Origin: Haliotis asinina | Lineage: Eukaryota; Mollusca; Gastropoda; Lepetellida; Haliotidae | Direction: 5' to 3' | Length of the DNA: 64,000 nucleotides | NCBI RefSeq assembly: GCF_037392515.1 | Contig: NC_090288.1 | Location: 13,497,969-13,561,968, forward strand | Shown here: piece by piece, positions 1,663 through 24,870 of the stretch | Position numbering within the stretch: the stretch's first letter is position 1 | How the letters are laid out: each line of letters opens with the position of its first letter | Program-made: the position numbers and the translations under genes | The notes under the pieces: generated by a model | What the model was told of the DNA's origin: nothing | Databases searched by the model: none | The model's input: the letters and a program-made list of their open reading frames with translations, nothing else

Positions 1663-1754
1663 ATTAAACCGAATTGTCATTAGAATTTCATCTATCTTTA
1701 AACCATATGTTTGCAAAATAAAGAAAACGAGCAAACGAAAATATTTTCGTCCAC

Positions 1755-2995: not shown

Positions 2996-3140
2996 TTAAA
3001 TTTTGAGTTTTCGAAAAGATTTTTTAGCACATATACATAACAGCTGCCTGTTTAATTTTGCGAAATCGCTTGTGAGAGAGTGGCCACAGTGCTGAGAGTT
3101 TCTGGACTTTTGTGAGTCCAGAATTAAATTGTGACGTGTT

Positions 3141-3272
3141 CCTATTATCCCATTTGTACCTCTTTGGTCTGTTTCGGCTACATTTTTGGGCTTTCCTTTG
3201 GACACACCCTTTCGATCAAGTTATATTTTGGCATACCCTTTGGCTGACATTTCTATGGTATTTCTCTCGTAA
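3141..3272 (+). pseudogene. 5'-truncated alternative last exon at left array edge
   Basis: The array begins inside the coding part of exon 4. The bases from 3141 on match unit exon 4, ending at the same TAA (3270-3272) and followed by the same AATAAA at 3350-3355. The splice acceptor and the first part of the exon are absent and replaced by unrelated sequence next to the satellite. It cannot be expressed as part of a complete gene copy. Confidence 0.8.
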
Positions 3273-3749
3273 TGAGAGGACCATTCTTCCCTTTTGGCCC
3301 CAATTCGGATATTTTCTTTAAGCACATACCATTCTATGTTTTTATATGTAATAAATATTGATGAATGGTATACACACGAGTCTGTTTTTCTTCCTACTTT
3401 GAACCTACTAACAACTAGGTGACAGTAACACAACAGGAGAGGCAATTGAACCAAGTCTGTTTTATTGTGATAGAACTTGAAGATGCTGTAAGACTACACT
3501 AATGAAAATACTAAGGGATCGTTTGCGCTGTCCCATTGTGTTGCTGTCTTCTAATCGAGTTTTTAGCAAGTTCTCTGTGATGGAAATGACGACGTCAATA
3601 GTCGTGTGCAGTTATAACTACAAACTGGATGTCGGAACTCTAGATATTTTACGATGACATCACTTACTTTAAATTACGTGCACTGGTGAATAATCGAGAA
3701 TGGTCTCCCTTCACTGTTTGTGGTTGTTTAACCGTCACCTCTGTTTTAG

Positions 3750-3893
3750 TGAGTGAGTCGGATTTTACGCCGCTTTTAGCATTATTCCAGCTGTAGGACG
3801 GCGGGGGACACCAGAAATGGGCTTCACCCATTTGGGGAATGGAACCCGGCAATTCTGCTTTAAGCACAAGGCTACCCTACCACCCCACATCGT
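3750..3893 (-). mobile_element. tRNA-derived SINE (family 2) fragment inside the array unit
   Basis: The segment reads GTGAGTGAGTCGGATTTTACGCCGCTTTTAGC, then CACCAGAAATGGGCTTCACCC, GGAATGGAACCCGG and GCACAAGGCTACCC. On the minus strand this gives a tRNA-like head (A-box-like GTAGCC, B-box-like CGGGTTCCATTCC) and the shared SINE tail. It is present at the same place in every unit, about 3358 bp apart, so it inserted before amplification. Shorter A-box surroundings than in other family members suggest internal loss. Confidence 0.7.
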
Positions 3894-4925
3894 ATTTATA
3901 TATGTGCACATATTCAAAGACTGGAAGGGCGGTTGTGCTCCTCGTCGAGTGGTCATTAAGCAGGTCGATGGGCTGTAAGTGCATTTAAAGGAATGGCTGG
4001 ACTGGTCTCTCTTATCCAGCTTGGTCCGGGCTGATGCACAAAGGGAGACCACTCATGTCGGACTATTAGCGAGCGTTTATCAGTCGAATTGCGTAGGCTA
4101 TCTTTCCGCAGCAATTAGTGCACCTACCAACAGCCTGTAAAAGTACGCCACGAGCTAAACACCAGCAAACGGTGCGCACGTCCGATGTACGGACTTTGCC
4201 AGCAACTATTTACGTTCATCAGTTTGCCACTTTCAATTCGGGGTTCAAACAAACACAACATGCACTTCTTTTTATCACCGACGGTAACCAAGGCAACGAC
4301 CGACAAAAGGGGATGTGCTTCCTTATTTGTAGTCGTTTCCGTCTTTGGTTAGTGAGACTAAGGTCTTTCTTCCACAGTTCTATGGAAACAAATGGTCCCT
4401 AACGTCTATCAATTTTCAACTTGGTGAAAATGACTTTAACGTACATCTGCCCATTATATCCGGCACTACACGTGCATAGACTTCAGTTTCCCTTTCTGAT
4501 ATACTCTTATGTGAAATAACAAAAAGGGGAATGGGAAGACTTGTATCTTTCTGTCTGAAAACGAATCCTCAACTTTCCCCACTGGTACTCATCTTAAAAG
4601 GGCTTTGGAGAACTGACAATGTGTTTTTAAGATCTAACAGATAAGACGTGGTAGTGAACTATGGTATATCCTGTTTGAACCTGTAGGCATCGGCTAAAAA
4701 CCTAAAAATCGCCAGGTGTTTGACACCATGAGATCCGACTCTAGCCGCCTGCTTGGCATTGCCGGAAACATTCGATGACGCCTCGTTCTGACTTCGTTTC
4801 CATGTAGTTACCGTTGTCGTTGCCAACGGTCCCCTCTGTTCCTAACAGAATCGCCATTGCTCTTGCTACCTATCGCTCTGCATTTCGTTGACTACAACAT
4901 CGTTCCGAGTTCTGCTACTGTCAAG

Positions 4926-6630
4926 ATGTTTACAAGGCTGCATATTCAAGGTATTTAAGCAGTCAGTTATTGTATTTTAAAGTGTTAAAAGTGTAGACTG
5001 ACTTTAAATTGGCCGTAGTTTGACCGTAGCAACAGTGGGGATGACTGGCCGCCATTTGCAATTTTGTGAAAATTCCCAAATGTGTATGTGTTTAATGTGT
5101 ATTCTGCCCATGAAATGAAAGCTCTCGCTATTTATAAACGACGGACGGTACTTTTAGAATCCTTTTGACATATTGTAACTGTTTATAAGGCATAGTTTGG
5201 GCATATTGTTTTGTCAGCTTTTCATGAAAATAGTCGGCCTTTTGTGGCTATTCTAATAGATGGATGGTATACCAAAGCAGTGATTAAATGTCCATTATTA
5301 TTCTTGTAACACCTATTCGTGGCCGATACTTGTCCCGAACGGGACTCCATTAGCTTCATGGTCTATTTTATCGGCAATCCGCATGTCTACTATAGCTTCG
5401 ACGGTCTCTAAATTACTCTTCATGTATTTTAATGTGCATTTTAACGTGTTGTTTTTGGTTATTTTCAGCACGGGAAGACGTGATCCGGTATCATGTCACT
5501 CCTGCTGCTAGTCTATGGCCGTCGCTGGATGAGGAATCCGACTGTGTATGCATTTCATCTACATCTTCTTGAGCTTGGAGGGAATAGTTTTCTTCTTTTC
5601 TCTATGCTTCCACAATCGTCTTGTGCATAGTAGAGACATTTCATTGTATTTTCTCTGTTACGGTATGCTGAAAATCAATCCCCGGGTACCCCTCTCCCAT
5701 TTACACCTTAACATTTCTTTCTAACAATCTGTCAGCATAGACTGTTTGTCTAGGGGTACTGCCTGATAAAATGTGTAATCTGGGGCTATGGACTGTGACC
5801 TTTTTCTGGCCTATCGTCTCATAAACACCTCCTGTAACCCTTGCCCAATGACACTACTTTATCCCACCCTCCCCACTCACCAATATAGCGATCCCTGGCT
5901 TCGTCCCCGAGCCCCTCTCCCGACCCTCTGAGCGTTTTCACCCCGTTCTGGGCCCGCCCTGACCACGGAGAGACGCTCCCTGCCCCAGTCACTATCACCT
6001 ATGTCGACTATTATCCTGTCCCAAGTGACGACGACAGTGACTACTGGGTCTATGAGGACGAGGACGACGACAGCTTCGTGGAGGATATTCATCCCGTGAG
6101 GAAGGCGCTGAGGAGAGTGGCTGCCTTCTTCAGGAGAGTATTCTCGTAGATTCCTCATCTAGTGTGCACGTGTGTGCGTGCGAGCGTGCGAGCGTGCGTG
6201 TGTGTGTGTGTAAAAATGAATATGTAGGTGTAAGAACGTTATTATGAAATTAGATGGGATGTAAACGTGTATATGTGCGAGTGTACATGTTGTAAGATAA
6301 AGTGTGTTTCTGAAAGAATGTTGTTTTTGTGGAGAGAGAGAAAGAGAAAGTGGGGAGGACGGGAGAGAGAGAGAATGAGGGAGAGGATGGTAAATATATA
6401 TTTTTCTGTATATGTGATGTTGATGTGGTTTGCAGGCGTATTGGGTTCGCTGTATATGTTTTCAGGTTGGACGACTTGTTGGGGTATCTGCACAATACCC
6501 TATTATCCCATTTGTACCTCTTTGGTCTGTTTCGGCTACATTTTTGGGCTTTCCTTTGGACACACCCTTTCGATCAAGTTATATTTTGGCATACCCTTTG
6601 GCTGACATTTCTATGGTATTTCTCTCGTAA
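4926..6630 (+). CDS. Array gene, copy 1: spliced acidic protein with cationic amphipathic C-terminus (family unknown)
   Basis: Not recognised. Proposed exons are 4926-4950 (ATG, MFTRLHIQ, ends CAAG before GTATTT), 5469-5545 (after TTATTTTCAG; REDVIRYHVTPAASLWPSLD then EESDC; weak donor GTATGC), and 5889-6149 (after a pyrimidine-rich stretch ending CAATATAG; stop TAG). Phases join without a break, giving 120 residues. Residues 35-79 are Ser/Pro-rich, 81-100 are very acidic (DDDSDYWVYEDEDDDSFVED), and 104-120 (VRKALRRVAAFFRRVFS) put all six basic residues on one helix face. An in-phase donor at CCC|GTGAGG (6095) could instead join exon 4, 6466-6630 or 6436-6630, which ends in a hydrophobic YPIIPFVPLWSVSATFLGF tail, giving 157 or 167 residues. 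The start has A at -3. A good acceptor at 4848 suggests a spliced 5' UTR. No clear signal peptide is seen. Confidence 0.5.
6168..6213. repeat. TG/CG-rich alternating tract, copy 1
   Basis: Alternating purine-pyrimidine sequence (GTGTGTGCGTGCGAGCG then a TG run) lies just after the exon-3 stop and could adopt Z-form DNA. Its length varies between units (shorter in units 4 and 6), as expected for a microsatellite. Confidence 0.8.
6331..6391. repeat. GA-rich purine tract, copy 1
   Basis: A polypurine run (GAGAGAGAGAAAGAGAAAG and following) lies between the exon-3 stop and the exon-4 acceptor. It recurs in every unit and is rearranged in unit 6. It lies next to the right-hand breakpoint of the array in the last partial unit. 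Confidence 0.8.
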
Positions 6631-6707
6631 TGAGAGGACCATTCTTCCCTTTTGGCCCCAATTCGGATATTTTCTTTAAGCACATACCATTCTATGTTTT
6701 TATATGT

Positions 6708-6713
6708 AATAAA
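6708..6713 (+). terminator. Poly(A) signal AATAAA of the array gene
   Basis: AATAAA lies 77 nt after the exon-4 stop and is followed about 30 nt later by a T-rich stretch (CTGTTTTTCTTCC) that could serve as downstream element. The same signal is present at 3350, 10066, 13430, 16715, 20080 and 23436, and it is retained in the diverged copy at 24269. Confidence 0.6.
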
Positions 6714-8283
6714 TATTGATGAATGGTATACACACGAGTCTGTTTTTCTTCCTACTTTGAACCTACTAACAACTAGGTGACAGTAACACAACAGGAGAGG
6801 CAATTGAACCAAGTCTGTTTTATTGTGATAGAACTTGAAGATGCTGTAAGACTACACTAATGAAAATACTAAGGGATCGTTTGCGCTGTCCCATTGTGTT
6901 GCTGTCTTCTAATCGAGTTTTTAGCAAGTTCTCTGTGATGGAAATGACGACGTCAATAGTCGTGTGCAGTTATAACTACAAACTGGATGTCGGAACTCTA
7001 GATATTTTACGATGACATCACTTACTTTAAATTACGTGCACTGGTGAATAATCGAGAATGGTCTCCCTTCACTGTTTGTGGTTGTTTAACCGTCACCTCT
7101 GTTTTAGTGAGTGAGTCGGATTTTACGCCGCTTTTAGCATTATTCCAGCTGTAGGACGGCGGGGGACACCAGAAATGGGCTTCACCCATTTGGGGAATGG
7201 AACCCGGCAATTCTGCTTTAAGCACAAGGCTACCCTACCACCCCACATCGTATTTATATATGTGCACATATTCAAAGACTGGAAGGGCGGTTGTGCTCCT
7301 CGTCGAGTGGTCATTAAGCAGGTCGATGGGCTGTAAGTGCATTTAAAGGAATGGCTGGACTGGTCTCTCTTATCCAGCTTGGTCCGGGCTGATGCACAAA
7401 GGGAGACCACTCATGTCGGACTATTAGCGAGCGTTTATCAGTCGAATTGCGTAGGCTATCTTTCCGCAGCAATTAGTGCACCTACCAACAGCCTGTAAAA
7501 GTACGCCACGAGCTAAACACCAGCAAACGGTGCGCACGTCCGATGTACGGACTTTGCCAGCAACTATTTACGTTCATCAGTTTGCCACTTTCAATTCGGG
7601 GTTCAAACAAACACAACATGCACTTCTTTTTATCACCGACGGTAACCAAGGCAACGACCGACAAAAGGGGATGTGCTTCCTTATTTGTAGTCGTTTCCGT
7701 CTTTGGTTAGTGAGACTAAGGTCTTTCTTCCACAGTTCTATGGAAACAAATGGTCCCTAACGTCTATCAATTTTCAACTTGGTGAAAATGACTTTAACGT
7801 ACATCTGCCCATTATATCCGGCACTACACGTGCATAGACTTCAGTTTCCCTTTCTGATATACTCTTATGTGAAATAACAAAAAGGGGAATGGGAAGACTT
7901 GTATCTTTCTGTCTGAAAACGAATCCTCAACTTTCCCCACTGGTACTCATCTTAAAAGGGCTTTGGAGAACTGACAATGTGTTTTTAAGATCTAACAGAT
8001 AAGACGTGGTAGTGAACTATGGTATATCCTGTTTGAACCTGTAGGCATCGGCTAAAAACCTAAAAATCGCCAGGTGTTTGACACCATGAGATCCGACTCT
8101 AGCCGCCTGCTTGGCATTGCCGGAAACATTCGATGACGCCTCGTTCTGACTTCGTTTCCATGTAGTTACCGTTGTCGTTGCCAACGGTCCCCTCTGTTCC
8201 TAACAGAATCGCCATTGCTCTTGCTACCTATCGCTCTGCATTTCGTTGACTACAACATCGTTCCGAGTTCTGCTACTGTCAAG

Positions 8284-9988
8284 ATGTTTACAAGGCTGCA
8301 TATTCAAGGTATTTAAGCAGTCAGTTATTGTATTTTAAAGTGTTAAAAGTGTAGACTGACTTTAAATTGGCCGTAGTTTGACCGTAGCAACAGTGGGGAT
8401 GACTGGCCGCCATTTGCAATTTTGTGAAAATTCCCAAATGTGTATGTGTTTAATGTGTATTCTGCCCATGAAATGAAAGCTCTCGCTATTTATAAACGAC
8501 GGACGGTACTTTTAGAATCCTTTTGACATATTGTAACTGTTTATAAGGCATAGTTTGGGCATATTGTTTTGTCAGCTTTTCATGAAAATAGTCGGCCTTT
8601 TGTGGCTATTCTAATAGATGGATGGTATACCAAAGCAGTGATTAAATGTCCATTATTATTCTTGTAACACCTATTCGTGGCCGATACTTGTCCCGAACGG
8701 GACTCCATTAGCTTCATGGTCTATTTTATCGGCAATCCGCATGTCTACTATAGCTTCGACGGTCTCTAAATTACTCTTCATGTATTTTAATGTGCATTTT
8801 AACGTGTTGTTTTTGGTTATTTTCAGCACGGGAAGACGTGATCCGGTATCATGTCACTCCTGCTGCTAGTCTATGGCCGTCGCTGGATGAGGAATCCGAC
8901 TGTGTATGCATTTCATCTACATCTTCTTGAGCTTGGAGGGAATAGTTTTCTTCTTTTCTCTATGCTTCCACAATCGTCTTGTGCATAGTAGAGACATTTC
9001 ATTGTATTTTCTCTGTTACGGTATGCTGAAAATCAATCCCCGGGTACCCCTCTCCCATTTACACCTTAACATTTCTTTCTAACAATCTGTCAGCATAGAC
9101 TGTTTGTCTAGGGGTACTGCCTGATAAAATGTGTAATCTGGGGCTATGGACTGTGACCTTTTTCTGGCCTATCGTCTCATAAACACCTCCTGTAACCCTT
9201 GCCCAATGACACTACTTTATCCCACCCTCCCCACTCACCAATATAGCGATCCCTGGCTTCGTCCCCGAGCCCCTCTCCCGACCCTCTGAGCGTTTTCACC
9301 CCGTTCTGGGCCCGCCCTGACCACGGAGAGACGCTCCCTGCCCCAGTCACTATCACCTATGTCGACTATTATCCTGTCCCAAGTGACGACGACAGTGACT
9401 ACTGGGTCTATGAGGACGAGGACGACGACAGCTTCGTGGAGGATATTCATCCCGTGAGGAAGGCGCTGAGGAGAGTGGCTGCCTTCTTCAGGAGAGTATT
9501 CTCGTAGATTCCTCATCTAGTGTGCACGTGTGTGCGTGCGAGCGTGCGAGCGTGCGTGTGTGTGTGTGTAAAAATGAATATGTAGGTGTAAGAACGTTAT
9601 TATGAAATTAGATGGGATGTAAACGTGTATATGTGCGAGTGTACATGTTGTAAGATAAAGTGTGTTTCTGAAAGAATGTTGTTTTTGTGGAGAGAGAGAA
9701 AGAGAAAGTGGGGAGGACGGGAGAGAGAGAGAATGAGGGAGAGGATGGTAAATATATATTTTTCTGTATATGTGATGTTGATGTGGTTTGCAGGCGTATT
9801 GGGTTCGCTGTATATGTTTTCAGGTTGGACGACTTGTTGGGGTATCTGCACAATACCCTATTATCCCATTTGTACCTCTTTGGTCTGTTTCGGCTACATT
9901 TTTGGGCTTTCCTTTGGACACACCCTTTCGATCAAGTTATATTTTGGCATACCCTTTGGCTGACATTTCTATGGTATTTCTCTCGTAA
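8284..9988 (+). CDS. Array gene, copy 2
   Basis: Exons correspond to 8284-8308, 8827-8903, 9247-9507 and the alternative last exon 9824-9988 (upstream acceptor choice 9794). All splice borders, the start codon and both stop codons are as in copy 1. I see no difference from copy 1 in the coding exons, so the encoded 120-residue protein is the same. The lack of any difference over a whole 3358-bp unit implies very recent duplication, conversion, or a collapsed or duplicated assembly. Confidence 0.48.
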
Positions 9989-11641
9989 TGAGAGGACCAT
10001 TCTTCCCTTTTGGCCCCAATTCGGATATTTTCTTTAAGCACATACCATTCTATGTTTTTATATGTAATAAATATTGATGAATGGTATACACACGAGTCTG
10101 TTTTTCTTCCTACTTTGAACCTACTAACAACTAGGTGACAGTAACACAACAGGAGAGGCAATTGAACCAAGTCTGTTTTATTGTGATAGAACTTGAAGAT
10201 GCTGTAAGACTACACTAATGAAAATACTAAGGGATCGTTTGCGCTGTCCCATTGTGTTGCTGTCTTCTAATCGAGTTTTTAGCAAGTTCTCTGTGATGGA
10301 AATGACGACGTCAATAGTCGTGTGCAGTTATAACTACAAACTGGATGTCGGAACTCTAGATATTTTACGATGACATCACTTACTTTAAATTACGTGCACT
10401 GGTGAATAATCGAGAATGGTCTCCCTTCACTGTTTGTGGTTGTTTAACCGTCACCTCTGTTTTAGTGAGTGAGTCGGATTTTACGCCGCTTTTAGCATTA
10501 TTCCAGCTGTAGGACGGCGGGGGACACCAGAAATGGGCTTCACCCATTTGGGGAATGGAACCCGGCAATTCTGCTTTAAGCACAAGGCTACCCTACCACC
10601 CCACATCGTATTTATATATGTGCACATATTCAAAGACTGGAAGGGCGGTTGTGCTCCTCGTCGAGTGGTCATTAAGCAGGTCGATGGGCTGTAAGTGCAT
10701 TTAAAGGAATGGCTGGACTGGTCTCTCTTATCCAGCTTGGTCCGGGCTGATGCACAAAGGGAGACCACTCATGTCGGACTATTAGCGAGCGTTTATCAGT
10801 CGAATTGCGTAGGCTATCTTTCCGCAGCAATTAGTGCACCTACCAACAGCCTGTAAAAGTACGCCACGAGCTAAACACCAGCAAACGGTGCGCACGTCCG
10901 ATGTACGGACTTTGCCAGCAACTATTTACGTTCATCAGTTTGCCACTTTCAATTCGGGGTTCAAACAAACACAACATGCACTTCTTTTTATCACCGACGG
11001 TAACCAAGGCAACGACCGACAAAAGGGGATGTGCTTCCTTATTTGTAGTCGTTTCCGTCTTTGGTTAGTGAGACTAAGGTCTTTCTTCCACAGTTCTATG
11101 GAAACAAATGGTCCCTAACGTCTATCAATTTTCAACTTGGTGAAAATGACTTTAACGTACATCTGCCCATTATATCCGGCACTACACGTGCATAGACTTC
11201 AGTTTCCCTTTCTGATATACTCTTATGTGAAATAACAAAAAGGGGAATGGGAAGACTTGTATCTTTCTGTCTGAAAACGAATCCTCAACTTTCCCCACTG
11301 GTACTCATCTTAAAAGGGCTTTGGAGAACTGACAATGTGTTTTTAAGATCTAACAGATAAGACGTGGTAGTGAACTATGGTATATCCTGTTTGAACCTGT
11401 AGGCATCGGCTAAAAACCTAAAAATCGCCAGGTGTTTGACACCATGAGATCCGACTCTAGCCGCCTGCTTGGCATTGCCGGAAACATTCGATGACGCCTC
11501 GTTCTGACTTCGTTTCCATGTAGTTACCGTTGTCGTTGCCAACGGTCCCCTCTGTTCCTAACAGAATCGCCATTGCTCTTGCTACCTATCGCTCTGCATT
11601 TCGTTGACTACAACATCGTTCCGAGTTCTGCTACTGTCAAG

Positions 11642-13352
11642 ATGTTTACAAGGCTGCATATTCAAGGTATTTAAGCAGTCAGTTATTGTATTTTAAAGTG
11701 TTAAAAGTGTAGACTGACTTTAAATTGGCCGTAGTTTGACCGTAGCAACAGTGGGGATGACTGGCCGCCATTTGCAATTTTGTGAAAATTCCCAAATGTG
11801 TATGTGTTTAATGTGTATTCTGCCCATGAAATGAAAGCTCTCGCTATTTATAAACGACGGACGGTACTTTTAGAATCCTTTTGACATATTGTAACTGTTT
11901 ATAAGGCATAGTTTGGGCATATTGTTTTGTCAGCTTTTCATGAAAATAGTCGGCCTTTTGTGGCTATTCTAATAGATGGATGGTATACCAAAGCAGTGAT
12001 TAAATGTCCATTATTATTCTTGTAACACCTATTCGTGGCCGATACTTGTCCCGAACGGGACTCCATTAGCTTCATGGTCTATTTTATCGGCAATCCGCAT
12101 GTCTACTATAGCTTCGACGGTCTCTAAATTACTCTTCATGTATTTTAATGTGCATTTTAACGTGTTGTTTTTGGTTATTTTCAGCACGGGAAGACGTGAT
12201 CCGGTATCATGTCACTCCTGCTGCTAGTCTATGGCCGTCGCTGGATGAGGAATCCGACTGTGTATGCATTTCATCTACATCTTCTTGAGCTTGGAGGGAA
12301 TAGTTTTCTTCTTTTCTCTATGCTTCCACAATCGTCTTGTGCATAGTAGAGACATTTCATTGTATTTTCTCTGTTACGGTATGCTGAAAATCAATCCCCG
12401 GGTACCCCTCTCCCATTTACACCTTAACATTTCTTTCTAACAATCTGTCAGCATAGACTGTTTGTCTAGGGGTACTGCCTGATAAAATGTGTAATCTGGG
12501 GCTATGGACTGTGACCTTTTTCTGGCCTATCGTCTCATAAACACCTCCTGTAACCCTTGCCCAATGACACTACTTTATCCCACCCTCCCCACTCACCAAT
12601 ATAGCGATCCCTGGCTTCGTCCCCGAGCCCCTCTCCCGACCCTCTGAGCGTTTTCACCCCGTTCTGGGCCCGCCCTGACCACGGAGAGACGCTCCCTGCC
12701 CCAGTCACTATCACCTATGTCGACTATTATCCTGTCCCAAGTGACGACGACAGTGACTACTGGGTCTATGAGGACGAGGACGAGGACGACGACAGCTTCG
12801 TGGAGGATATTCATCCCGTGAGGAAGGCGCTGAGGAGAGTGGCTGCCTTCTTCAGGAGAGTATTCTCGTAGATTCCTCATCTAGTGTGCACGTGTGTGCG
12901 TGCGAGCGTGCGAGCGTGCGTGTGTGTGTGTGTAAAAATGAATATGTAGGTGTAAGAACGTTATTATGAAATTAGATGGGATGTAAACGTGTATATGTGC
13001 GAGTGTACATGTTGTAAGATAAAGTGTGTTTCTGAAAGAATGTTGTTTTTGTGGAGAGAGAGAAAGAGAAAGTGGGGAGGACGGGAGAGAGAGAGAATGA
13101 GGGAGAGGATGGTAAATATATATTTTTCTGTATATGTGATGTTGATGTGGTTTGCAGGCGTATTGGGTTGGCTGTATATGTTTTCAGGTTGGACGACTTG
13201 TTGGGGTATCTGCACAATACCCTATTATCCCATTTGTACCTCTTTGGTCTGTTTCGGCTACATTTTTGGGCTTTCCTTTGGACACACCCTTTCGATCAAG
13301 TTATATTTTGGCATACCCTTTGGCTGACATTTCTATGGTATTTCTCTCGTAA
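11642..13352 (+). CDS. Array gene, copy 3, with an extra Glu-Asp in the acidic run
   Basis: Exons are 11642-11666, 12185-12261, 12605-12871 and the alternative last exon 13188-13352. Exon 3 is 6 bp longer than in the other copies because one GAGGAC is duplicated, adding Glu-Asp to the acidic segment without breaking the frame, so the product is 122 residues. The exon-4 upstream-acceptor version changes Arg to Gly relative to copies 1 and 2. All borders are intact. Confidence 0.48.
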
Positions 13353-15007
13353 TGAGAGGACCATTCTTCCCTTTTGGCCCCAATTCGGATATTTTCTTTA
13401 AGCACATACCATTCTATGTTTTTATATGTAATAAATATTGATGAATGGTATACACACGAGTCTGTTTTTCTTCCTACTTTGAACCTACTAACAACTAGGT
13501 GACAGTAACACAACAGGAGAGGCAATTGAACCAAGTCTGTTTTATTGTGATAGAACTTGAAGATGCTGTAAGACTACACTAATGAAAATACTAAGGGATC
13601 GTTTGCGCTGTCCCATTGTGTTGCTGTCTTCTAATCGAGTTTTTAGCAAGTTCTCTGTGATGGAAATGACGACGTCAATAGTCGTGTGCAGTTATAACTA
13701 CAAACTGGATGTCGGAACTCTAGATATTTTACGATGACATCACTTACTTTAAGTTACGTGCACTGGTGAATGATCGAGAATGGTCTCCCTTCACTGTTTG
13801 TGGTTGTTTAACCGTCACCTCTGTTTTAGTGAGTGAGTCGGATTTTACGCCGCTTTTAGCATTATTCCATCTGTAGGACGGCGGGGGACACCAGAAATGG
13901 GCTTCACCCATTTGGGGAATGGAACCCGGCAATTCTGCTTTAAGCACAAGGCTACCCTACCACCCCACATCGTATTTATATATGTGCACATATTCAAAGA
14001 CTGGAAGGGCGGTTGTGCTCCTCGTCGAGTGGTCATTAAGCAGGTCGATGGGCTGTAAGTGTATTTAAAGGAATGGCTGGACTGGTCTCTCTTATCCAGC
14101 TTGGTCCGGGCTGATGCACAAAGGGAGACCACTCATGTCGGACTATTAGCGAGCGTTTATCAGTCGAATTGCGTAGGCTATCTTTCCGCAGCAATTAGTG
14201 CACCTACCAACAGCCTGTAAATGTACGCCACGAGCTAAACACCAGCAAACGGTGCTCACGTCCGATGTACGGACTTTGCCAGCAACTATTTACGTTCATC
14301 AGTTTGCCACTTTCAATTCGGGGTTCAAACAAACACAACATGCACTTCTTTTTATCACCGACGGTAACCAAGGCAACGACCGACAAAAGGGGATGTGCTT
14401 CCTTATTTGTAGTCGTTTCCGTCTTTGGTTAGTGAGACTAAGGTCTTTCTTCCACAGTTCTATGGAAACAAATGGTCCCTAACGTCTATCAATTTTCAAC
14501 TTGGTGAAAATGACTTTAACGTACATCTGCCCATTATATCCGGCACTACACGTGCATAGACTTCAGTTTCCCTTTCTGATATACTCTTATGTGAAATAAC
14601 AAAAAGGGGAATGGGAAGACTTGTATCTTTCTGTCTGAAAACGAATCCTCAACTTTCCCCACTGGTACTCATCTTAAAAGGGCTTTGGAGAACTGACAAT
14701 GTGTTTTTAAGATCTAACAGATAAGACGTGGTAGTGAACTATGGTATATCCGACGTTTGAACCTGTAGGCATCGGCTAAAAACCTAAAAATCGCCAGGTG
14801 TTTGACACCATGAGATCCGACTCTAGCCGCCTGCTTGGCATTGCCGGAAACATTCGATGACGCCTCGTTCTGACTTCGTTTCCATGTAGTTACCGTTGTC
14901 GTTGCCAACGGTCCCCTCTGTTCCTAACAGAATCGCCATTGCTCTTGCTACCTATCGCTGTGCATTTCGTTGACTACAACATCGTTCCGAGTTCTGCTAC
15001 TGTCAAG

Positions 15008-16637
15008 ATGTTTACAAGGCTGCATATTCAAGGTATTTAAGCAGTCAGTTATTGTATTTTAAAGTGTTAAAAGTGTAGACTGACTTTAAATTGGCCGTAG
15101 TTTGACCGTAGCAACAGTGGGGATGACTGGCCACCATTTGCAATTTTGTGAAAATTCCCAAATGTGTATGTGTTTAATGTGTATTCTGCCCGTGAAATGA
15201 AAGCTCTCGCTATTTATAAACGACGGACGGTACTTTTAGAATCCTTTTGACATATTGTAACTGTTTATAAGGCATAGTTTGGGCATATTGTTTTGTCAGC
15301 TTTTCATGAAAATAGTCGACCTTTTGTGGCTATTCTAATAGATGGATGGTATACCAAAGCAGTGATTAAATGTCCATTATTATTCTTGTAACACATATTC
15401 GTGGCCGATACTTGTCCCGAACGGGACTCCATTAGCTTCATGGTCTATTTTATCGGCAATCCGCATGTCTACTATAGCTTCGACGGTCTCTAAATTACTC
15501 TTCATGTATTTTAATGTGCATTTTAACGTGTTGTTTTTGGTTATTTTCAGCACGGGAAGACGTGATCCGGTATCATGTCACTCCTGCTGCTAGTCTATGG
15601 CCGTCGCTGGATGAGGAATCCGACTGTGTATGCATTTCATCTACATCTTCTTGAGCTTGGAGGGAATAGTTTTCTTCTTTTCTCTATGCTTCCACAATCG
15701 TCTTGTGCATAGTAGAGACATTTCATTGTATTTTCTCTGTTACGGTATGCTGAAAATCAATCCCCGGGTACCCCTCTCCCATTTACACCTGAACATTTCT
15801 TTCTAACAATCTGTCAGCATAGACTGTTTGTCTAGGGGTACTGCCTGATAAAATGTGTAATCTGGGGCTATGGACTGTGACCTTTTTCTGGCCTATCGTC
15901 TCATAAACACCTCCTGTAACCCTTGCCCAATGACACTACTTAATCCCACCCTCCCCACTCACCAATATAGCGATCCCTGGCTTCGTCCCCGAGCCCCTCT
16001 CCCGACCCTCTGAGCGTTTTCACCCCGTTCTGGGCCCGCCCTGACCACGGAGAGACGCTCCCTGCCCCAGTCACTATCACCTATGTCGACTATTATCCTG
16101 TCCCAAGTGACGACGACAGTGACTACTGGGTCTATGAGGACGAGGACGACGACAGCTTCGTGGAGGATATTCATCCCGTGAGGAAGGCGCTGAGGAGAGT
16201 GGCTGCCTTCTTCAGGAGAGTATTCTCGTAGATTCCTCATCTAGTGTGCGCGTGTGTGCGTGCGAGCGTGCGAGCGTGCGTGTGTGTGTAAAAATGAATA
16301 TGTAGGTGTAAGAACGTTATAATGAAATTAGATGGGATGAGAGAGAGAAAGAGAAAGTGGGGAGGACGGGAGAGAGAGAGAATGAGGGAGAGGATGGTAA
16401 ATATATATTTTTCTGTATATGTGATGTTGATGTGGTTTGCAGGCGTATTGGGTTGGCTGTATATGTTTTCAGGTTGGACGACTTGTTGGGGTATCTGCAC
16501 AATACCCTATTATCCCATTTGTACCTCTTTGGTCTGTTTCGGCTACATTTTTGGGCTTTCCTTTGGACACACCCTTTCGATCAAGTTATATTTTGGCATA
16601 CCCTTTGGCTGACATTTCTATGGTATTTCTCTCGTAA
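15008..16637 (+). CDS. Array gene, copy 4, with shortened last intron
   Basis: Exons are 15008-15032, 15551-15627, 15971-16231 and the alternative last exon 16473-16637. The coding exons match copy 1. The intron between exon 3 and exon 4 lacks about 72 bp immediately before the GA tract, yet both exon-4 acceptors remain. The exon-3 upstream pyrimidine stretch has one T-to-A change and keeps the TAG acceptor. Confidence 0.47.
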
Positions 16638-18293
16638 TGAGAGGACCATTCTTCCCTTTTGGCCCCAATTCGGATATTTTCTTTAAGCACATACCATTCT
16701 ATGTTTTTATATGTAATAAATATTGATGAATGGTATACACACGAGTCTGTTTTTCTTCCTACTTTGAACCTACTAACAACTAGGTGACAGTAACACAACA
16801 GGAGAGGCAATTGAACCAAGTCTGTTTTATTGTGATAGAACTTGAAGATGCTGTAAGACTACACTAATGAAAATACTAAGGGATCGTTTGCGCTGTCCCA
16901 TTGTGTTGCTGTCTTCTAATCGAGTTTTTAGCAAGTTCTCTGTGATGGAAATGACGACGTCAATAGTCGTGTGCAGTTATAACTACAAACTGGATGTCGG
17001 AACTCTAGATATTTTACGATGACATCACTTACTTTAAATTACGTGCACTGGTGAATGATCGAGAATGGTCTCCCTTCACTCTTTGTGGTTGTTTAACCGT
17101 CACCTCTGTTTTAGTGAGTGAGTCGGATTTTACGCCGCTTTTAGCATTATTCCAGCTGTAGGACGGCGGGGGACACCAGAAATGGGCTTCACCCATTTGG
17201 GGAATGGAACCCGGCAATTCTGCTTTAAGCACAAGGCTACCCTACCACCCCACATCGTATTTATATATGTGCACATATTCAAAGACTGGAAGGGCGGTTG
17301 TGCTCCTCGTCGAGTAGTCATTAAGCAGGTCGATGAGCTGTAAGTGTATTTAAAGGAATGGCTGGACTGGTCTCTCTTATCCAGCTTGGTCCGGGCTGAT
17401 GCACAAAGGGAGACCACTCATGTCGGACTATTAGCGAGCGTTTATCAGTCGAATTGCGTAGGCTATCTTTCCGCAGCAATTAGTGCACCTACCAACAGCC
17501 TGTAAATGTACGCCACGAGCTAAACACCAGCAAACGGTGCTCACGTCCGATGTACGGACTTTGCCAGCAACTTTTTACGTTCATCAGTTTGCCACTTTCA
17601 ATTCGGGGTTCAAACAAACACAACATGCACTTCTTTTTATCACCGACGGTAACCAAGGCAACGACCGACAAAAGGGGATGTGCTTCCTTATTTGTAGTCG
17701 TTTCCGTCTTTGGTTAGTGAGACTAAGGTCTTTCTTCCACAGTTCTATGGAAACAAATGGTCCCTAACGTCTATCAATTTTCAACTTGGTGAAAATGACT
17801 TTAACGTACATCTGCCCATTATATCCGGCACTACACGTGCATAGACTTCAGTTTCCCTTTCTGATATACTCTTATGTGAAATAAAAAAAAGGGGAATGGG
17901 AAGACTTGTATCTTTCTGTCTGAAAACGAATCCTCAACTTTCCCCACTGGTACTCATCTTAAAAGGGCTTTGGAGAACTGACAATGTGTTTTTAAGATCT
18001 AACAGATAAGACGTGGTAGTGAACTATGGTATATCCGACGTTTGAACCTGTAGGCATCGGCTAAAAACCTAAAAATCGCCAGGTGTTTGACACCATGAGA
18101 TCCGACTCTAGCCGCCTGCTTGGCATTGCCGGAAACATTCGATGACGCCTCGTTCTGACTTCGTTTCCATGTAGTTACCGTTGTCGTTGCCAACGGTCCC
18201 CTCTGTTCCTAACAGAATCGCCATATGCTCTTGCTACCTATCGCTCTGCATTTCGTTGACTACAACATCGTTCCGAGTTCTGCTACTGTCAAG

Positions 18294-20002
18294 ATGTTTA
18301 CAAGGCTGCATATTCAAGGTATTTAAGCAGTCAGTTATTGTATTTTAAAGTGTTAAAAGTGTAGACTGACTTTAAATTGGCCGTAGTTTGACCGTAGCAA
18401 CAGTGGGGATGACTGGCCGCCATTTGCAATTTTGTGAAAATTCCCAAATGTGTATGTGTTTAATGTGTATTCTGCCCGTGAAATGAAAGCTCTCGCTATT
18501 TATAAACGACGGACGGTACTTTTAGAATCCTTTTGACATATTGTAACTGTTTATAAGGCATAGTTTGGGCATATTGTTTTGTCAGCTTTTCATGAAAATA
18601 GTCGACCTTTTGTGGCTATTCTAATAGATGGATGGTATACCAAAGCAGTGATTAAATGTCCATTATTATTCAGTCTTGTAACACCTATTCGTGGCCGATA
18701 CTTGTCCCGAACGGGACTCCATTAGCTTCATGGTCTATTTTATCGGCAATCCGCATGTCTACTATAGCTTCGACGGTCTCTAAATTACTCTTCATGTATT
18801 TTAATGTGCATTTTAACGTGTTGTTTTTGGTTATTTTCAGCACGGGAAGACGTGATCCGGTATCATGTCACTCCTGCTGCTAGTCTATGGCCGTCGCTGG
18901 ATGAGGAATCCGACTGTGTATGCATTTCATCTACATCTTCTTGAGCTTGGAGGGAATAGTTTTCTTCTTTTCTCTATGCTTCCACAATCGTCTTGTGCAT
19001 AGTAGAGACATTTCATTGTATTTTCTCTGTTACGGTATGCTGAAAATCAATCCCCGGGTACCCCTCTCCCATTTACACCTTAACATTTCTTTCTAACAAT
19101 CTGTCAGCATAGACTGTTTGTCTAGGGGTACTGCCTGATAAAATGTGTAATCTGGGGCTATGGACTGTGACCTTTTTCTGGCCTATCGTCTCATAAACAC
19201 CTCCTGTAACCCTTGCCCAATGACACTACTTTATCCCACCCTCCCCACTCACCAATATAGCGATCCCTGGCTTCGTCCCCGAGCCCCTCTCCCGACCCTC
19301 TGAGCGTTTTCACCCCGTTCTGGGCCCGCCCTGACCACGGAGAGACGCTCCCTGCCCCAGTCACTATCACCTATGTCGACTATTATCCTGTCCCAAGTGA
19401 CGACGACAGTGACTACTGGGTCTATGAGGACGAGGACGACGACAGCTTCGTGGAGGATATTCATCCCGTGAGGAAGGCGCTGAGGAGAGTGGCTGCCTTC
19501 TTCAGGAGAGTATTCTCGTAGATTCCTCATCTAGTGTGCACGTGTGTGCGTGCGAGCGTGCGAGCGTGCGTGTGTGTGTGTGTAAAAATGAATATGTAGG
19601 TGTAAGAACGTTATTATGAAATTAGATGGGATGTAAACGTGTATATGTGCGAGTGTACATGTTGTAAGATAAAGTGTGTTTCTGAAAGAATGTTCTTTTT
19701 GTGGAGAGAGAGAAAGAGAAAGTGGGGAGGACGGGAGAGAGAGAGAATGAGGGAGAGGATGGTAAATATATATTTTTCTGTATATGTGATGTTGATGTGG
19801 TTTGCAGGCGTATTGGGTTGGCTGTATATGTTTTCAGGTTGGACGACTTGTTGGGGTATCCGCACAATACCCTATTATCCCATTTGTACCTCTTTGGTCT
19901 GTTTCGGCTACATTTTTGGGCTTTCCTTTGGACACACCCTTTCGATCAAGTTATATTTTGGCATACCCTTTGGCTGACATTTCTATGGTATTTCTCTCGT
20001 AA
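18294..20002 (+). CDS. Array gene, copy 5
   Basis: Exons are 18294-18318, 18841-18917, 19261-19521 and the alternative last exon 19838-20002. Coding exons match copy 1. One extra base near 18224, upstream of the ATG, would shift any longer reading frame starting 5' of the chosen start. This supports 18294 as the start and makes the upstream hydrophobic-looking frame (SPLLLLPIALHF) untranslated at least in this copy. Intron 1 has three extra bases near 18672. Confidence 0.47.
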
Positions 20003-21657
20003 TGAGAGGACCATTCTTCCCTTTTGGCCCCAATTCGGATATTTTCTTTAAGCACATACCATTCTATGTTTTTATATGTAATAAATATTGATGAATGGTA
20101 TACACACGAGTCTGTTTTTCTTCCTACTTTGAACCTACTAACAACTAGGTGACAGTAACACAACAGGAGAGGCAATTGAACCAAGTCTGTTTTATTGTGA
20201 TAGAACTTGAAGATGCTGTAAGACTACACTAATGAAAATACTAAGGGATCGTTTGCGCTGTCCCATTGTGTTGCTGTCTTCTAATCGAGTTTTTAGCAAG
20301 TTCTCTGTGATGGAAATGACGACGTCAATAGTCGTGTGCAGTTATAACTACAAACTGGATGTCGGAACTCTAGATATTTTACGATGACATCACTTACTTT
20401 AAATTACGTGCACTGGTGAATAATCGAGAATGGTCTCCCTTCACTCTTTGTGGTTGTTTAACCGTCACCTCTGTTTTAGTGAGTGAGTCGGATTTTACGC
20501 CGCTTTTAGCATTATTTCAGCTGTAGGACGGCGGGGGACACCAGAAATGGGCTTCACCCATTTGGGGAATGGAACCCGGCAATTCTGCTTTAAGCACAAG
20601 GCTACCCTACCACCCCACATCGTATTTATATATGTGCACATATTCAAAGACTGGAAGGGCGGTTGTGCTCCTCGTCGAGTGGTCATTAAGCAGGTCGATG
20701 AGCTGTAAGTGTATTTAAAGGAATGGCTGGACTGGTCTCTCTTATCCAGCTTGGTCCGGGCTGATGCACAAAGGGAGACCACTCTTGTCGGACTATTAGC
20801 GAGCGTTTATCAGTCGAATTGCGTAGGCTATCTTTCCGCAGCAATTAGTGCACCTACCAACAGCCTGTAAAAGTACGCCACGAGCTAAACACCAGCAAAC
20901 GGTGCGCACGTCCGATGTACGGACTTTGCCAGCAACTATTTACGTTCATCAGTTTGCCACTTTCAATTCGGGGTTCAAACAAACACAACATGCACTTCTT
21001 TTTATCACCGACGGTAACCAAGGCAACGACCGACAAAAGGGGATGTGCTTCCTTATTTGTAGTCGTTTCCGTCTTTGGTTAGTGAGACTAAGGTCTTTCT
21101 TCCACAGTTCTATGGAAACAAATGGTCCCTAACGTCTATCAATTTTCAACTTGGTGAAAATGACTTTAACGTACATCTGCCCATTTTATCCGGCACTACA
21201 CGTGCATAGACTTCAGTTTCCCTTTCTGATATACTCTTATGTGAAATAACAAAAAGGGGAATGGGAAGACTTGTATCTTTCTGTCTGAAAACGAATCCTC
21301 AACTTTCCCCACTGGTACTCATCTTAAAAGGGCTTTGGAGAACTGACAGTGTGTTTTTAAGATCTAACAGATAAGGCGTGGTAGTGAACTATGGTATAGC
21401 CAGCGTTTGAACCTGTAGGCATCGGCTAAAAACCTAAAAATCGCCAGGTGTTTGACACCATGAGATCCGACTCTAGCCGCCTGCTTGGCATTGCCGGAAA
21501 CATTCGATGACGCCTCGTTCTGACTTCGTTTCCATGTAGTTACCGTTGTCGTTGCCAACGGTCCCCTCTGTTCCTAACAGAATCGCCATTGCTCTTGCTA
21601 CCTATCGCTCTGCATTTCGTTGACTACAACATCGTTCCGAGTTCTGCTACTGTCAAG

Positions 21658-23358
21658 ATGTTTACAAGGCTGCATATTCAAGGTATTTAAGCAGTCAGTT
21701 ATTGTATTTTAAAGTGTTAAAAGTGTAGACTGACTTTAAATTGGCCGTAGTTTGACCGTAGCAACAGTGGGGATGACTGGCCGCCATTTGCAATTTTGTG
21801 AAAATTCCCAAATGTGTATGTGTTTAATGTGTATTCTGCCCGTGAAATGAAAGCTCTCGCTATTTATAAACGACGGACGGTACTTTTAGAATCCTTTTGA
21901 CATATTGTAACTGTTTATAAGGCATAGTTTGGGCATATTGTTTTGTCAGCTTTTCATGAAAATAGTCGGCCTTTTGTGGCTATTCTAATACATGGATGGT
22001 ATACCAAAGCAGTGATTAAATGTCCATTATTATTCTTGTAACACCTATTCGTGGCCGATACTTGTCCCGAACGGGACTCCATTAGCTTCATGGTCTATTT
22101 TATCGGCAATCCGCATGTCTACTATAGCTTCGACGGTCTCTAAATTACTCTTCATGTATTTTAATGTGCATTTTAACGTGTTGTTTTTGGTTATTTTCAG
22201 CACGGGAAGACGTGATCCGGTATCATGTCACTCCTGCTGCTAGTCTATGGCCGTCGCTGGATGAGGAATCCGACTGTGTATGCATTTCATCTACATCTTC
22301 TTGAGCTTGGAGGGAATAGTTTTCTTCTTTTCTCTATGCTTCCACAATCGTCTTGTGCATAGTAGAGACATTTCATTGTATTTTCTCTGTTACGGTATGC
22401 TGAAAATCAATCCCCGGGTACCCCTCTCCCATTTACACCTTAACATTTCTTTCTAACAATCTGTCAGCATAGACTGTTTGTCTAGGGGTACTGCCTGATA
22501 AAATGTGTAATCTGGGGCTATGGACTGTGACCTTTTTCTGGCCTATCGTCTCATAAACACCTCCTGTAACCCTTGCCCAATGACACTACTTTATCCCACC
22601 CTCCCCACTCACCAATATAGCGATCCCTGGCTTCGTCCCCGAGCCCCTCTCCCGACCCTCTGAGCGTTTTCACCCCGTTCTGGGCCCGCCCTGACCACGG
22701 AGAGACGCTCCCTGCCCCAGTCACTATCACCTATGTCGACTATTATCCTGTCCCAAGTGAAGACGACAGTGACTACTGGGTCTATGAGGACGAGGACGAC
22801 GACAGCTTCGTGGAAGATATTCATCCCGTGAGGAAGGCGCTGAGGAGAGTGGCTGCCTTCTTCAGGAGAGTATTCTTGTAGATTCCTCATCTAGTGTGCA
22901 CGTGTGTGCGTGCGAGCGTGCGAGCGTGCGTGTGTGTGTAAAAATGAATATGTAGGTGTAAGAACGTTATTATGAAATTAGATGGGATGTAAACGTGTAT
23001 ATGTGCGAGTGTACATGTTGTAAGATAAAGTGTGTTTCTGAAAGAATGTTCTTTTTGTGGAGAGAGAGAGAAAGAGAAAGTGGGGAGGACGGGAGAGAGA
23101 GAATGAGGGAGAGGATGGTAAATATATATTTTTCTGTATATGTGATGTTGATGTGGTTTGCAGGCGTATTTGGTTGGCTGTATATGTTTTCAGGTTGGAC
23201 GACTTGTTGGGGTATCCGCACAATACCCTATTATCCCATTTGTACCTCTTTGGTCTGTTTCGGCTACATTTTTGGGCTTTCCTTTGGACACACCCTTTCG
23301 ATCAAGTTATATTTTGGCATACCCTTTGGCTGACATTTCTATGGTATTTCTCTCGTAA
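21658..23358 (+). CDS. Array gene, copy 6, most divergent intact copy
   Basis: Exons are 21658-21682, 22201-22277, 22621-22881 and the alternative last exon 23194-23358. Exon 3 has three changes against copy 1: a conservative Asp81Glu, a synonymous GAG/GAA in the acidic run, and a Ser120Leu at the last residue. The frame and all splice borders are kept. The exon-4 upstream-acceptor version differs by two residues. The copy sits next to the older diverged partial copy. Confidence 0.47.
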
Positions 23359-23893
23359 TGAGAGGACCATTCTTCCCTTTTGGCCCCAATTCGGATATTT
23401 TCTTTAAGCACATACCATTCTATGTTTTTATATGTAATAAATATTGATGAATGGTATACACACGAGTCTGTTTTTCTTCCTACTTTGAACCTACTAACAA
23501 CTAGGTGACAGTAACACAACAGGAGAGGCAATTGAACCAAGTCTGTTTTATTGTGATAGAACTTGAAGATGCTGTAAGACTACACTAATGAAAATACTAA
23601 GGGATCGTTTGCGCTGTCCCGTTGTGTTGCTGCCTTCTAATCGAGTTTTTAGCAAGTTCTCTGTGATGGAAATGACGACGTCAATAGTCGTGTGCAGTTA
23701 TAACTACAAACTGGATGTCGGAACTCTAGATATTTTACGATGACATCACTTACTTTAAATTACGTGCACTGGTGAATGATCGAGAGTGGTCTCCCTTCAC
23801 TCTTTGTGGTTGTTTAACCGTCACCTCTGTTTTAGTGAGTGAGTCGGATTTTACGCTGCTTCTAGCATTATTCCAGCCGTATGAGGGCGGGGG

Positions 23894-24870
23894 ACACCAG
23901 AAATGGGCTTCACCCATCTGGGAGAGAGAGAGTGGTGTGAGTTGGCAGGGTAGAGTCGTCTGTATCTGTGATGTTGACGTGATTTGCATGCCTTTTCTGT
24001 TGTGTTTGTTTTCAGGTTCGATGACATGTGTTTGGATGGCCGTAGGATACCCCATTTTCCCGTTTGCCCTTCTTTGGCCTGTTTTGGCTACATGTTTGGC
24101 TTTCTATTGGACACATTCTTTTGATCCAATATCTTTCTGCTATCTTTTCACATACCCTTTGGCTGACATCTCTGTGTTATTTCTCTCCTAATGAGAGGAC
24201 CACTCTTCCGTTTTGGCCCCGATTCGGATATTTTCTTTAAGCACATACCATTCTACTTCTTGATGTAAAATAAATATTGATGAATGGTATACACACGAGT
24301 CTGTTTTTCCTCCGTCTTTGGATCTATTAACAACTAGGTGACAGTAACACAGCAGGAAAAGCAATTGAACCAAGTCTGTATTATTCATTACAACTTGAAG
24401 TTCCTAGGTGTAAACTAATTAACACATGAAGACTTTCAAGGGTCGTTTGCTCTATCCTGCTGTGTTTCTGTCTTCTAGTCGAGTGTTTAACAAGTTCCAT
24501 GTGATGGAAATGACGACGTCTGTAGTCGTGTGCAGCTACTGCTACACACTTGATGTCGGAAGTCAGGATATGTTGCGTTTACTTCACTTGCTTTAAGTTA
24601 CGTGCACTGGTGAATGGTCCAGAGTGGTCTCCCTTCACTCTTTGTGGTTGTTTCGTCACTTCGTCTTTAGTGAGTGAGTCGGATTTTACACCACTTTTAG
24701 CAGTATTCCAGCTATATCACAGTCCTTCCGCTAGATGAACGAACTCTTTGACCACAAGGCTACCCTACCATTTCCACTTCGTGTTCAGATATTTGTACAT
24801 ATTCTAAGGTTGAAAGAGGAGTTGTCCTCCTTGTCTAATGGTCATTTTCAACCCAAATCCCAGCTAACCG
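23894..24870 (+). pseudogene. Older, diverged partial copy of the array unit (last exon and downstream flank)
   Basis: The acceptor GTTTGTTTTCAG at 24004-24015 and exon 24016-24191 match unit exon 4 at roughly 70-75 percent. They share the ending YPLADIS..FLS and the stop followed by TGAGAGGACC. The AATAAA is kept (24269-24274), and the 3' flank can be followed to about 24870. Relative to the unit there is a 2-bp length difference near the acceptor and small indels (net +9) inside the exon, so the reading frame just after the acceptor does not match the unit. Exons 1-3 are absent. It is either a relic or part of a related gene whose other exons were lost. Confidence 0.65.

Follow-up and report, generated by a model that had tools for sequence, protein, structure and literature searches.

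We found that a three-exon gene is repeated in head-to-tail arrays in the genome of the abalone Haliotis asinina. Its copies number at least 176 and are spread over 11 clusters on contigs C9, C13, and C92. Six of these copies lie in the window, the 64,000-nucleotide stretch of C9 that we analyzed. A sequence-only reading of the window had described a lineage-specific gene amplified to six copies. The amplification stands, as does the restriction to Haliotis in the searches made, but the genome holds at least 176 copies rather than six, and the earlier reading saw only the margin of a much larger system. The best explanation, to which we give about an even chance, is that a Haliotis-only gene was amplified for dosage and homogenized by exchange, and that its product is a disordered intracellular polyanion.

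The six near-identical tandem units noticed earlier are real, and two incomplete copies follow them.

Unit 1: start 3141, length 3358 bp
Unit 2: start 6499, length 3358 bp
Unit 3: start 9857, length 3364 bp
Unit 4: start 13221, length 3285 bp
Unit 5: start 16506, length 3365 bp
Unit 6: start 19871, length 3356 bp
23227-23890, plus strand: partial seventh unit; gene 6 3′ tail, then a short repeat, interrupted
24016-24700 (approximate), plus strand: diverged old 3′ tail (copy 8), identity 80-88% in the measured parts

Units 1 and 2 show zero differences, and the remaining pairs differ by 1-42 substitutions. Alignment of the six units revealed unit-specific indels as well as substitutions, and variable sites had similar frequencies throughout the gene: 3 in 363 bp of exon sequence and 7 in 861 bp of intron sequence. 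In a four-gamete test on 47 sites, 12 site pairs failed, demonstrating sequence exchange between copies of this array. Because the six units are nearly identical, they are not independent evidence for a gene. No RNA gene or tRNA was found within the window.

Each of the six units carries an exon E1 with 25 coding bp, an E2 of 77 bp, and an E3 of 261 bp (267 bp in unit 3); the borders are GT/AG, and the frame is open over 120 or 122 amino acids. The parts of the six genes, all on the plus strand, are as follows.

4926-4950, plus strand: gene 1 E1, coding part with ATG; conserved with its GT donor in six of seven other clusters and in C13
5469-5545, plus strand: gene 1 E2, 77 bp; from cluster comparison and C13
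5889-6149, plus strand: gene 1 E3 through the stop codon; from cluster comparison and C13
6150-6713, plus strand: gene 1 probable 3′ UTR, ending with AATAAA at 6708-6713; contains the proposed fourth exon, 6466-6630
8284-8308, plus strand: gene 2 E1
8827-8903, plus strand: gene 2 E2
9247-9507, plus strand: gene 2 E3
11642-11666, plus strand: gene 3 E1
12185-12261, plus strand: gene 3 E2
12605-12871, plus strand: gene 3 E3, 267 bp, with 6 additional in-frame bp
15008-15032, plus strand: gene 4 E1
15551-15627, plus strand: gene 4 E2
15971-16231, plus strand: gene 4 E3
18294-18318, plus strand: gene 5 E1
18841-18917, plus strand: gene 5 E2
19261-19521, plus strand: gene 5 E3
21658-21682, plus strand: gene 6 E1
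22201-22277, plus strand: gene 6 E2
22621-22881, plus strand: gene 6 E3; product differs from that of gene 1 at two residues

This exon anatomy is by itself not above chance, since dinucleotide shuffling of one unit gave a GT-AG three-exon frame of at least 120 amino acids 23 times out of 25, as would be expected if the gene were a chance frame within a non-coding repeat. What raises the gene above chance is comparison with other H. asinina clusters and with Haliotis rufescens. We aligned the window with clusters A, B, D, E, F, G, and H. The three exons, their splice sites, and the open frame are common to the window, six of these seven clusters, and C13; in cluster H (14.645 Mb), which was used without E1, E2 and E3 were found and E1 was absent from the piece analyzed. 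The dN/dS ratio was 0.07-0.29 for 27 of 28 cluster pairs, the outlier (D versus C92, 0.58) resting on three differences, and 0.11-0.22 in all eight comparisons with the C13 copy. Variable columns were distributed 20/14/49 over codon positions 1, 2, and 3 (chi-square p = 3e-6). As judged from these aligned coding sequences, the protein is under strong purifying selection. A chance frame is contradicted by the dN/dS values, the codon-position bias, and the cross-species homology, and we consider it scarcely credible. Exons shared across clusters, dN/dS, and the H. rufescens homologue instead support the proposal that every unit holds an intact spliced gene, and favor a real protein-coding gene, tandemly amplified in abalone.

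Synonymous sites are slowed as well. In six cluster pairs, divergence was 0.00-0.12 in exons and 0.19-0.54 in intron middles, with the shift falling near the exon edges; in the same pairs, four-fold sites differed by 7-16%, versus 19-54% for intron middles. This slowing could reflect homogenization of the exons only, for example via cDNA, or a second code within them.

The sequence-only reading had counted four intact segments per unit, the fourth a hydrophobic alternative last exon. All four are present with their borders in the six units, and segment 4 has in each a TTTTCAG acceptor, a phase-0 frame of 54 codons, and an AATAAA beyond. The fourth, however, is not supported as coding. Its acceptor is kept in one of seven other clusters (B, where 46 codons follow) and missing in A, D, E, F, G, and H, the pieces of E and F ending inside the region compared. 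Alternative AGs lie 5-9 bases from the lost acceptor in these six clusters, and the frames behind them run for 3-50 codons, the 50-codon frame occurring in D and C92. Between clusters, segment 4 diverged by 0.17-0.40, similar to the surrounding 3′ UTR. Relative to copy 8, it has indels of 2, 1, and 10 bases, and phase 0 of copy 8 stops after two residues; as copy 8 has no E1-E3 of its own in the window, this comparison is insufficient alone to decide the matter. A query joining E1, E2, and segment 4 matched P0001, the annotated H. asinina protein described below, in the E1-E2 part only. We rejected segment 4 as a coding last exon on the acceptor loss in six of seven clusters, the UTR-like divergence, and the non-triplet indels. 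There is no conserved fourth exon; a cluster-specific one would still be conceivable. A hairpin around the AATAAA was unremarkable (z = -1.48; 15 of 200 shuffles equally good).

Other frames were also discarded. The antisense ORF at 5877-6158 exists, as reported earlier, and is interrupted by a stop codon in four of eight clusters, which led us to reject it as a gene. An upstream extension of E1 was rejected as well, an in-frame ATG being absent in all seven clusters that have E1. Reading through the E2 acceptor, the form taken by H. rufescens isoform X1, leaves about 25 codons open in all eight clusters, with an ATG upstream of E2 in the window and cluster B only; the hydrophobic letters of this stretch are produced by the T-rich intron itself.

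Across the genome, clusters occur in both orientations and differ strongly in introns and period lengths. All 150 scored E3 matches, as listed, lacked an internal stop (41 of 191 candidates were unscored). Among the minus-strand copies of cluster B, E3 was open over 86 codons in 40 of 40, and 35 of 39 recovered copies encoded an identical E3 peptide. Exceptions were a lone copy at 13.103 Mb of C9, which has a frame shift and lacks the AG of the E3 acceptor; the copy at C9 11984558, listed with an extra TGA; and the copies at 13471916 and 13475273, listed with a frame of 103 codons, not 86. There is some decay among copies, and little among those examined. The arrays could have grown neutrally by unequal exchange, with the gene mostly a passenger, selection acting on few copies, and conversion spreading them. 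Array number can drift, the units are almost alike (1 and 2 completely so), and the lone copy outside the arrays decayed, all of which would fit such growth. Passengers, however, are expected to decay in some clusters, so the 150 stop-free E3 copies, found despite intron middles that differ by 19-54%, count against neutral growth, and we regard it as decidedly unlikely.

The copy in the small contig C92 differs from the 4.5-Mb cluster at 3 of 360 coding positions and 0 of 309 in intron 2, and this near-identity suggests that the two may be alternative haplotypes. Together with the identity of units 1 and 2, it is what one would expect if the arrays were an assembly artefact of duplicated or unmerged haplotypes. 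Such an origin is extremely improbable given the distinct indels and substitutions of each unit and the differences in introns and period length between clusters.

The protein had been called undescribed and of no recognized family. The first description no longer holds, as it is already predicted, as uncharacterized, in both H. asinina and H. rufescens. P0001, from the public H. asinina annotation, has exactly the same sequence as the 12.02-Mb cluster product and shares 95% identity with the window product. P0002, isoform X1 of H. rufescens LOC125376035 (140 amino acids), is 75% identical and has a different N terminus, reading upstream through the E2 acceptor; the N terminus and compartment of the protein are therefore tentative. 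The annotation entries comprise 13 (P0001) and 26 (P0002) member sequences, and the entry names give no sign of mass amplification. In neutral simulations against P0002, conservative changes were in mild excess (P = 0.035) and the lack of stops was uninformative (P = 0.4); a simulation of amino-acid changes against P0001 gave P = 0.28. The lack of a recognized family was borne out. Searching with the 120-residue spliced product yielded no Pfam family at E up to 10, and P0002 yielded none at E up to 0.1. There was no significant match in PDB (best E 2 and 0.91), no relative confirmed among 16 and 277 pattern matches to viruses and prokaryotes, and in PHROGs a best E of 0.27 and 0.64. One phage match of 37 bases had an E of 0.3. 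Relatives appeared only in Haliotis in these searches, and literature searches returned no paper on the gene.

The product begins MFTRLH, has no hydrophobic start by eye, and has an acidic run near the C terminus. Net charge is -10 or -11 across the seven full-length cluster products. An acidic, aromatic-rich stretch (net -12), part of which is fully invariant across clusters, precedes an amphipathic helix of +5 to +6 with a hydrophobic moment of 0.56-0.61 (P = 0.002-0.007 versus shuffles). AlphaFold, run on two sequences, gave a helix at 103-119 only and left the rest unstructured; confidence in this model is low (mean pLDDT 52). The product is thus predicted to be a disordered acidic chain that ends in a cationic amphipathic helix. 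Cationic antimicrobial precursors typically carry a secretory signal peptide and an amphipathic cationic helix after an acidic pro-part. The order of acidic part and predicted helix is alike here, and amplification could then have served immune dosage. Unlike such precursors, however, the E1 form does not start hydrophobically by eye, no in-frame ATG lies upstream, the ATG of the E2 read-through is confined to the window and cluster B, and the invariant acidic residues suggest a job of their own. We consider an antimicrobial precursor very unlikely.

In the explanation that we favor, amplification for dosage, the arrays would be a device in which many uniform working copies together supply one small protein in bulk, with unequal crossing-over and gene conversion maintaining uniformity and copy number. 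Some 180 copies with the protein kept similar suggest a high demand for it; we infer the dosage role solely from copy number and intactness. The protein would reside inside the cell, as the 120-amino-acid model lacks a signal-peptide-like start. Its acidic stretch would stay extended as a disordered polyanion, and the helix at 103-119 would dock on a membrane, a nucleic acid, or an acidic or hydrophobic partner. We infer that it could package, store, or buffer some other charged product of high abundance, a role like that of FITZAP toward sperm lysin.

Intragenomic conflict could also drive copy number, through an ampliconic arms race over transmission in which the C9 and C13 clusters are opposing or suppressing partners. 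The very high copy number, amplification on two large contigs in both orientations, exchange between copies, and restriction to abalones are all consistent with this, and families of this kind are described in the excerpted text of PMC10618873. That excerpt calls the genes "rapidly evolving", whereas the genes here show strong purifying selection and little decay, and we find conflict unlikely. A reading that some 180 mostly working tandem genes for an abalone-only protein reflect either a C9/C13 dosage race over gamete transmission or bulk packaging in gametes is, in our estimate, unlikely.

Apart from histones and some families driven by conflict, intact protein-coding genes at nearly 200 copies are, to our knowledge, rare. 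About 180 copies is unusually strong amplification for a protein gene, and here the protein is without a known family, abalone-only in our searches, and strongly conserved. The tissue and time of its production would reveal whether it is an overlooked bulk product of abalone or a new genetic-conflict amplification in a mollusc.

Among known systems, Stellate/Su(Ste) and Slx/Sly are ampliconic families with many homogenized copies, according to the part of PMC10618873 consulted. The likeness lies in the copy pattern, at least 176 copies with exchange between units, and we claim no sequence relation. Their paralogous arrays are on both sex chromosomes and are expressed in the testis; the arrays here occur on C9 and C13. 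Their rapid evolution contrasts with the dN/dS found here (0.07-0.29 for all but one of 28 pairs and 0.11-0.22 in comparisons with C13). The abalone acrosomal family (lysin, sp18, and duplicates) likewise consists of tandemly duplicated abalone genes; the excerpt of PMC9022041 describes four ancestral members, signal peptides, and positive selection, and that of PMC6952181 a positive charge. FITZAP (sp6) is, in the same excerpt of PMC6952181, an abalone sperm protein of about 6 kDa encoded by two exons, the first of which specifies a signal peptide and a poly-aspartate N terminus. Unlike FITZAP as described there, the window protein has three coding exons, 120 amino acids, and a cationic C-terminal helix, and by eye neither a signal-peptide-like start nor an N-terminal poly-aspartate. 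The partners of FITZAP are lysin or sp18, which it binds in the acrosome. Both are small, disordered, strongly anionic abalone proteins, and by analogy with FITZAP (PMC6952181, in part) charge-based binding of a partner is plausible.

Positions 3141-23226 of the window hold six head-to-tail units of ~3.36 kb each, followed on the right by a partial seventh unit and an old diverged 3′ tail. A reading of the sequence alone had proposed a spliced gene in every unit, and its anatomy of the six proved accurate: we found the same three exons, E1 (which carries the ATG; 25 coding bp), E2 (77 bp), and E3 (261 or 267 bp with the stop), all with GT/AG borders, in 6/6 units. Units 1, 2, 4, and 5 encode an identical 120-aa protein; the unit 3 protein has two additional residues and the unit 6 protein two substitutions. 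The AATAAA and 3′ end of each gene fall within the first 220 bp of the following unit. Other features of the window are as follows.

1920-2896: 180-bp tandem repeat, 5.5 copies, several of which bear palindromic CCCATGGGC motifs; it adjoins the array on its left side
~3746-3836 (unit 1), with a counterpart at the equivalent spot of every other unit: short dispersed repeat (GTGAGTGAGTCGG...), which we take to resemble a SINE; relatives near 44602-44709, 46313-46369, 52962-53011, and 54236-54310
6684-6729 and equivalents: inverted repeat ATACCATTC / GAATGGTAT around AATAAA; hairpin predicted at -11.4 kcal/mol (z -1.48)
23890-24016: junction of the partial seventh unit with the old eighth copy, inside a stretch of repeats and GA-rich DNA, looking as though a single deletion had removed the intervening exons
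40138-40524 and 41745-42098, minus strand: two open stretches that match the thrombospondin type 1 domain of ADAMTS (Pfam PF19030; E values 2.6e-8 and 4.7e-10), both probably exons from an ADAMTS-like animal gene

The anatomy of the window is by itself insufficient to prove a gene. No difference separates units 1 and 2, and even the most divergent pair of the six differs by just 42 substitutions, so the six copies amount to roughly one observation. Exons have 3 variable sites in 363 bp and introns 7 in 861 bp, an equal density, and a three-exon GT-AG frame of 120 aa or more turned up in 23 of 25 dinucleotide shuffles of one unit.

We searched the H. asinina assembly (1.143 Gb, 159 contigs), in which the window occupies C9:13497969-13561968, for short motifs. 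A 26-base E3 motif occurred 165 times exactly and 182 times with up to 3 mismatches, and a 33-base motif from the beginning of E2 occurred 172 times with up to 2 mismatches; reversed control motifs gave 0 occurrences. Counting by hand, cluster by cluster, we obtained at least 176 copies, a lower bound, with 150 of 385 candidates scored in one E3 listing and 150 of 191 in another.

Copies by cluster in the H. asinina assembly (C9 is the contig of the window; C13 and C92 are further contigs)
C9 4.50-4.54 Mb: 11 copies, by the E2 motif
C9 4.93-5.06 Mb: 35 copies, from two listings (33 + 2)
C9 11.97-12.09 Mb: 28 copies
C9 13.103 Mb: 1 copy, lone
C9 13.17-13.30 Mb: 40 copies (cluster B)
C9 13.46-13.52 Mb: 15 copies, the window's six being the right part
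C9 14.64-14.68 Mb: 8 copies
C9 14.79-14.86 Mb: 19 copies
C9 41.17-41.20 Mb: 7 copies
C92: 6 copies
C13 31.37-31.41 Mb: 6 copies

Neighbouring copies generally lie 3.3-4.4 kb apart, though a few steps measure 2.2-2.3 kb. The units on C92 (34,248 bases) are nearly identical to those of the 4.50-4.54 Mb cluster, and this contig is probably either an unplaced part of that cluster or its other haplotype; in the latter case, the count would fall by six. The window's own array is split, nine copies to the left and six to the right, by ~13.5 kb (C9 13490344-13503856, including window 1-3140) that holds no E3 match among those listed.

Most copies examined had an intact E3. All 150 scored E3 matches (of 191 candidates) were listed without an internal stop, and E3 was open, with 86 or 88 codons, in 40/40 copies of cluster B and in 16/16 excised loci, some of them within the window. 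In many rows of the other E3 listing, the TAG shown is the E3 acceptor. As listed, the copy at C9 11984558 has an additional TGA, and in those at 13471916 and 13475273 the frame runs to 103 codons rather than 86. The lone 13.103-Mb copy (L009, ~3199-3483) is decayed: its frame is shifted and its E3 acceptor lacks the AG. It lies outside the arrays, on the strand opposite to cluster B.

To compare clusters, we aligned the window with one unit from each of seven others and one C13 unit, leaving out the 41.17-Mb cluster. E1, E2, and E3 were intact in every aligned cluster except H (14.645 Mb), where E1 was not found in the piece read. Of 28 pairs, 27 had a dN/dS of 0.07-0.29 (the remaining pair, at 0.58, has only three differences); in pairs with C13 the ratio was 0.11-0.22 in 8/8. 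Binomial tests on five chosen pairs, which share branches and are not independent, gave p values of 1e-7 to 5e-6, and a codon-position test gave p = 3e-6. In six pairs, exons differed by 0.00-0.12 and intron middles, aligned with many gaps, by 0.19-0.54; in the closest pair, the window and B, introns were also nearly alike (0.05 and 0.085). Four-fold sites differed by 0.07-0.16 in six pairs, less than intron middles; codon use, conversion biased toward exons, or an additional constraint may lie behind this. We consider it almost certain that the gene is real.

The fourth segment fared differently. The sequence-only reading had taken it for a hydrophobic alternative last exon, which was not borne out: among the other aligned clusters, the TTTTCAG acceptor is kept only in B (not in A, D, E, F, G, or H), the frame is broken relative to copy 8 (window ~24016-24700), and the segment is as variable as the surrounding 3′ UTR. 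Other AGs lie 5-9 bases from the missing acceptor, with frames of 3 to 50 codons behind them, so we rejected the segment as a conserved coding exon. The segment is best seen as 3′ UTR.

Of the 73 candidates in a protein search, two were relatives.

P0001: an annotated Haliotis asinina protein of 120 aa
P0002: an H. rufescens protein of 140 aa (LOC125376035 isoform X1), with 75% identity

P0001 matches the product of the C9 12.02-Mb cluster letter for letter and is therefore a paralogue within the same genome, leaving P0002 as the only independent relative. A profile search with three sequences found no additional relatives among 1113 candidates, and Pfam, PDB, Rfam, prokaryotic, and viral searches found none.

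Twelve four-gamete violations among 47 sites indicate exchange among the six window units, and in cluster B 35 of the 39 recovered E3 peptides are identical. The favoured reading is that the arrays are a dosage device in which homogenisation maintains many uniform copies. The chief rival is conflict-driven amplification, as in ampliconic families (PMC10618873), against which stand the low dN/dS and the rarity of decayed copies.

The seven full-length products carry a net charge of -10 or -11. Their last 18 residues are cationic (+5 to +6) and amphipathic (hydrophobic moment 0.56-0.61; shuffle P 0.002-0.007), and the 27 residues before them, in which Asp, Glu, Tyr, and Trp abound, have a charge of -12. 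From an input of two sequences, the sole structure predicted by AlphaFold was a helix at 103-119 (block pLDDT 66 and 73, average 52). When H. rufescens is compared with nine H. asinina clusters (cluster H ignored where missing), 76 of 120 positions are invariant, among them the block SDDDSDYWVYEDED. Supplied in quantity, a disordered polyanion whose tail is cationic and amphipathic might package or buffer another abundant charged component. We give the account as a whole, dosage and packaging together, even chances, the packaging part being the weaker. That part draws on an analogy with FITZAP, the acidic sperm protein that, according to PMC6952181, packages or buffers lysin in abalone sperm. 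The proposed likeness lies in packaging or buffering an abundant charged partner; gene structure, size, and signal peptide differ and rule out membership in the FITZAP family.
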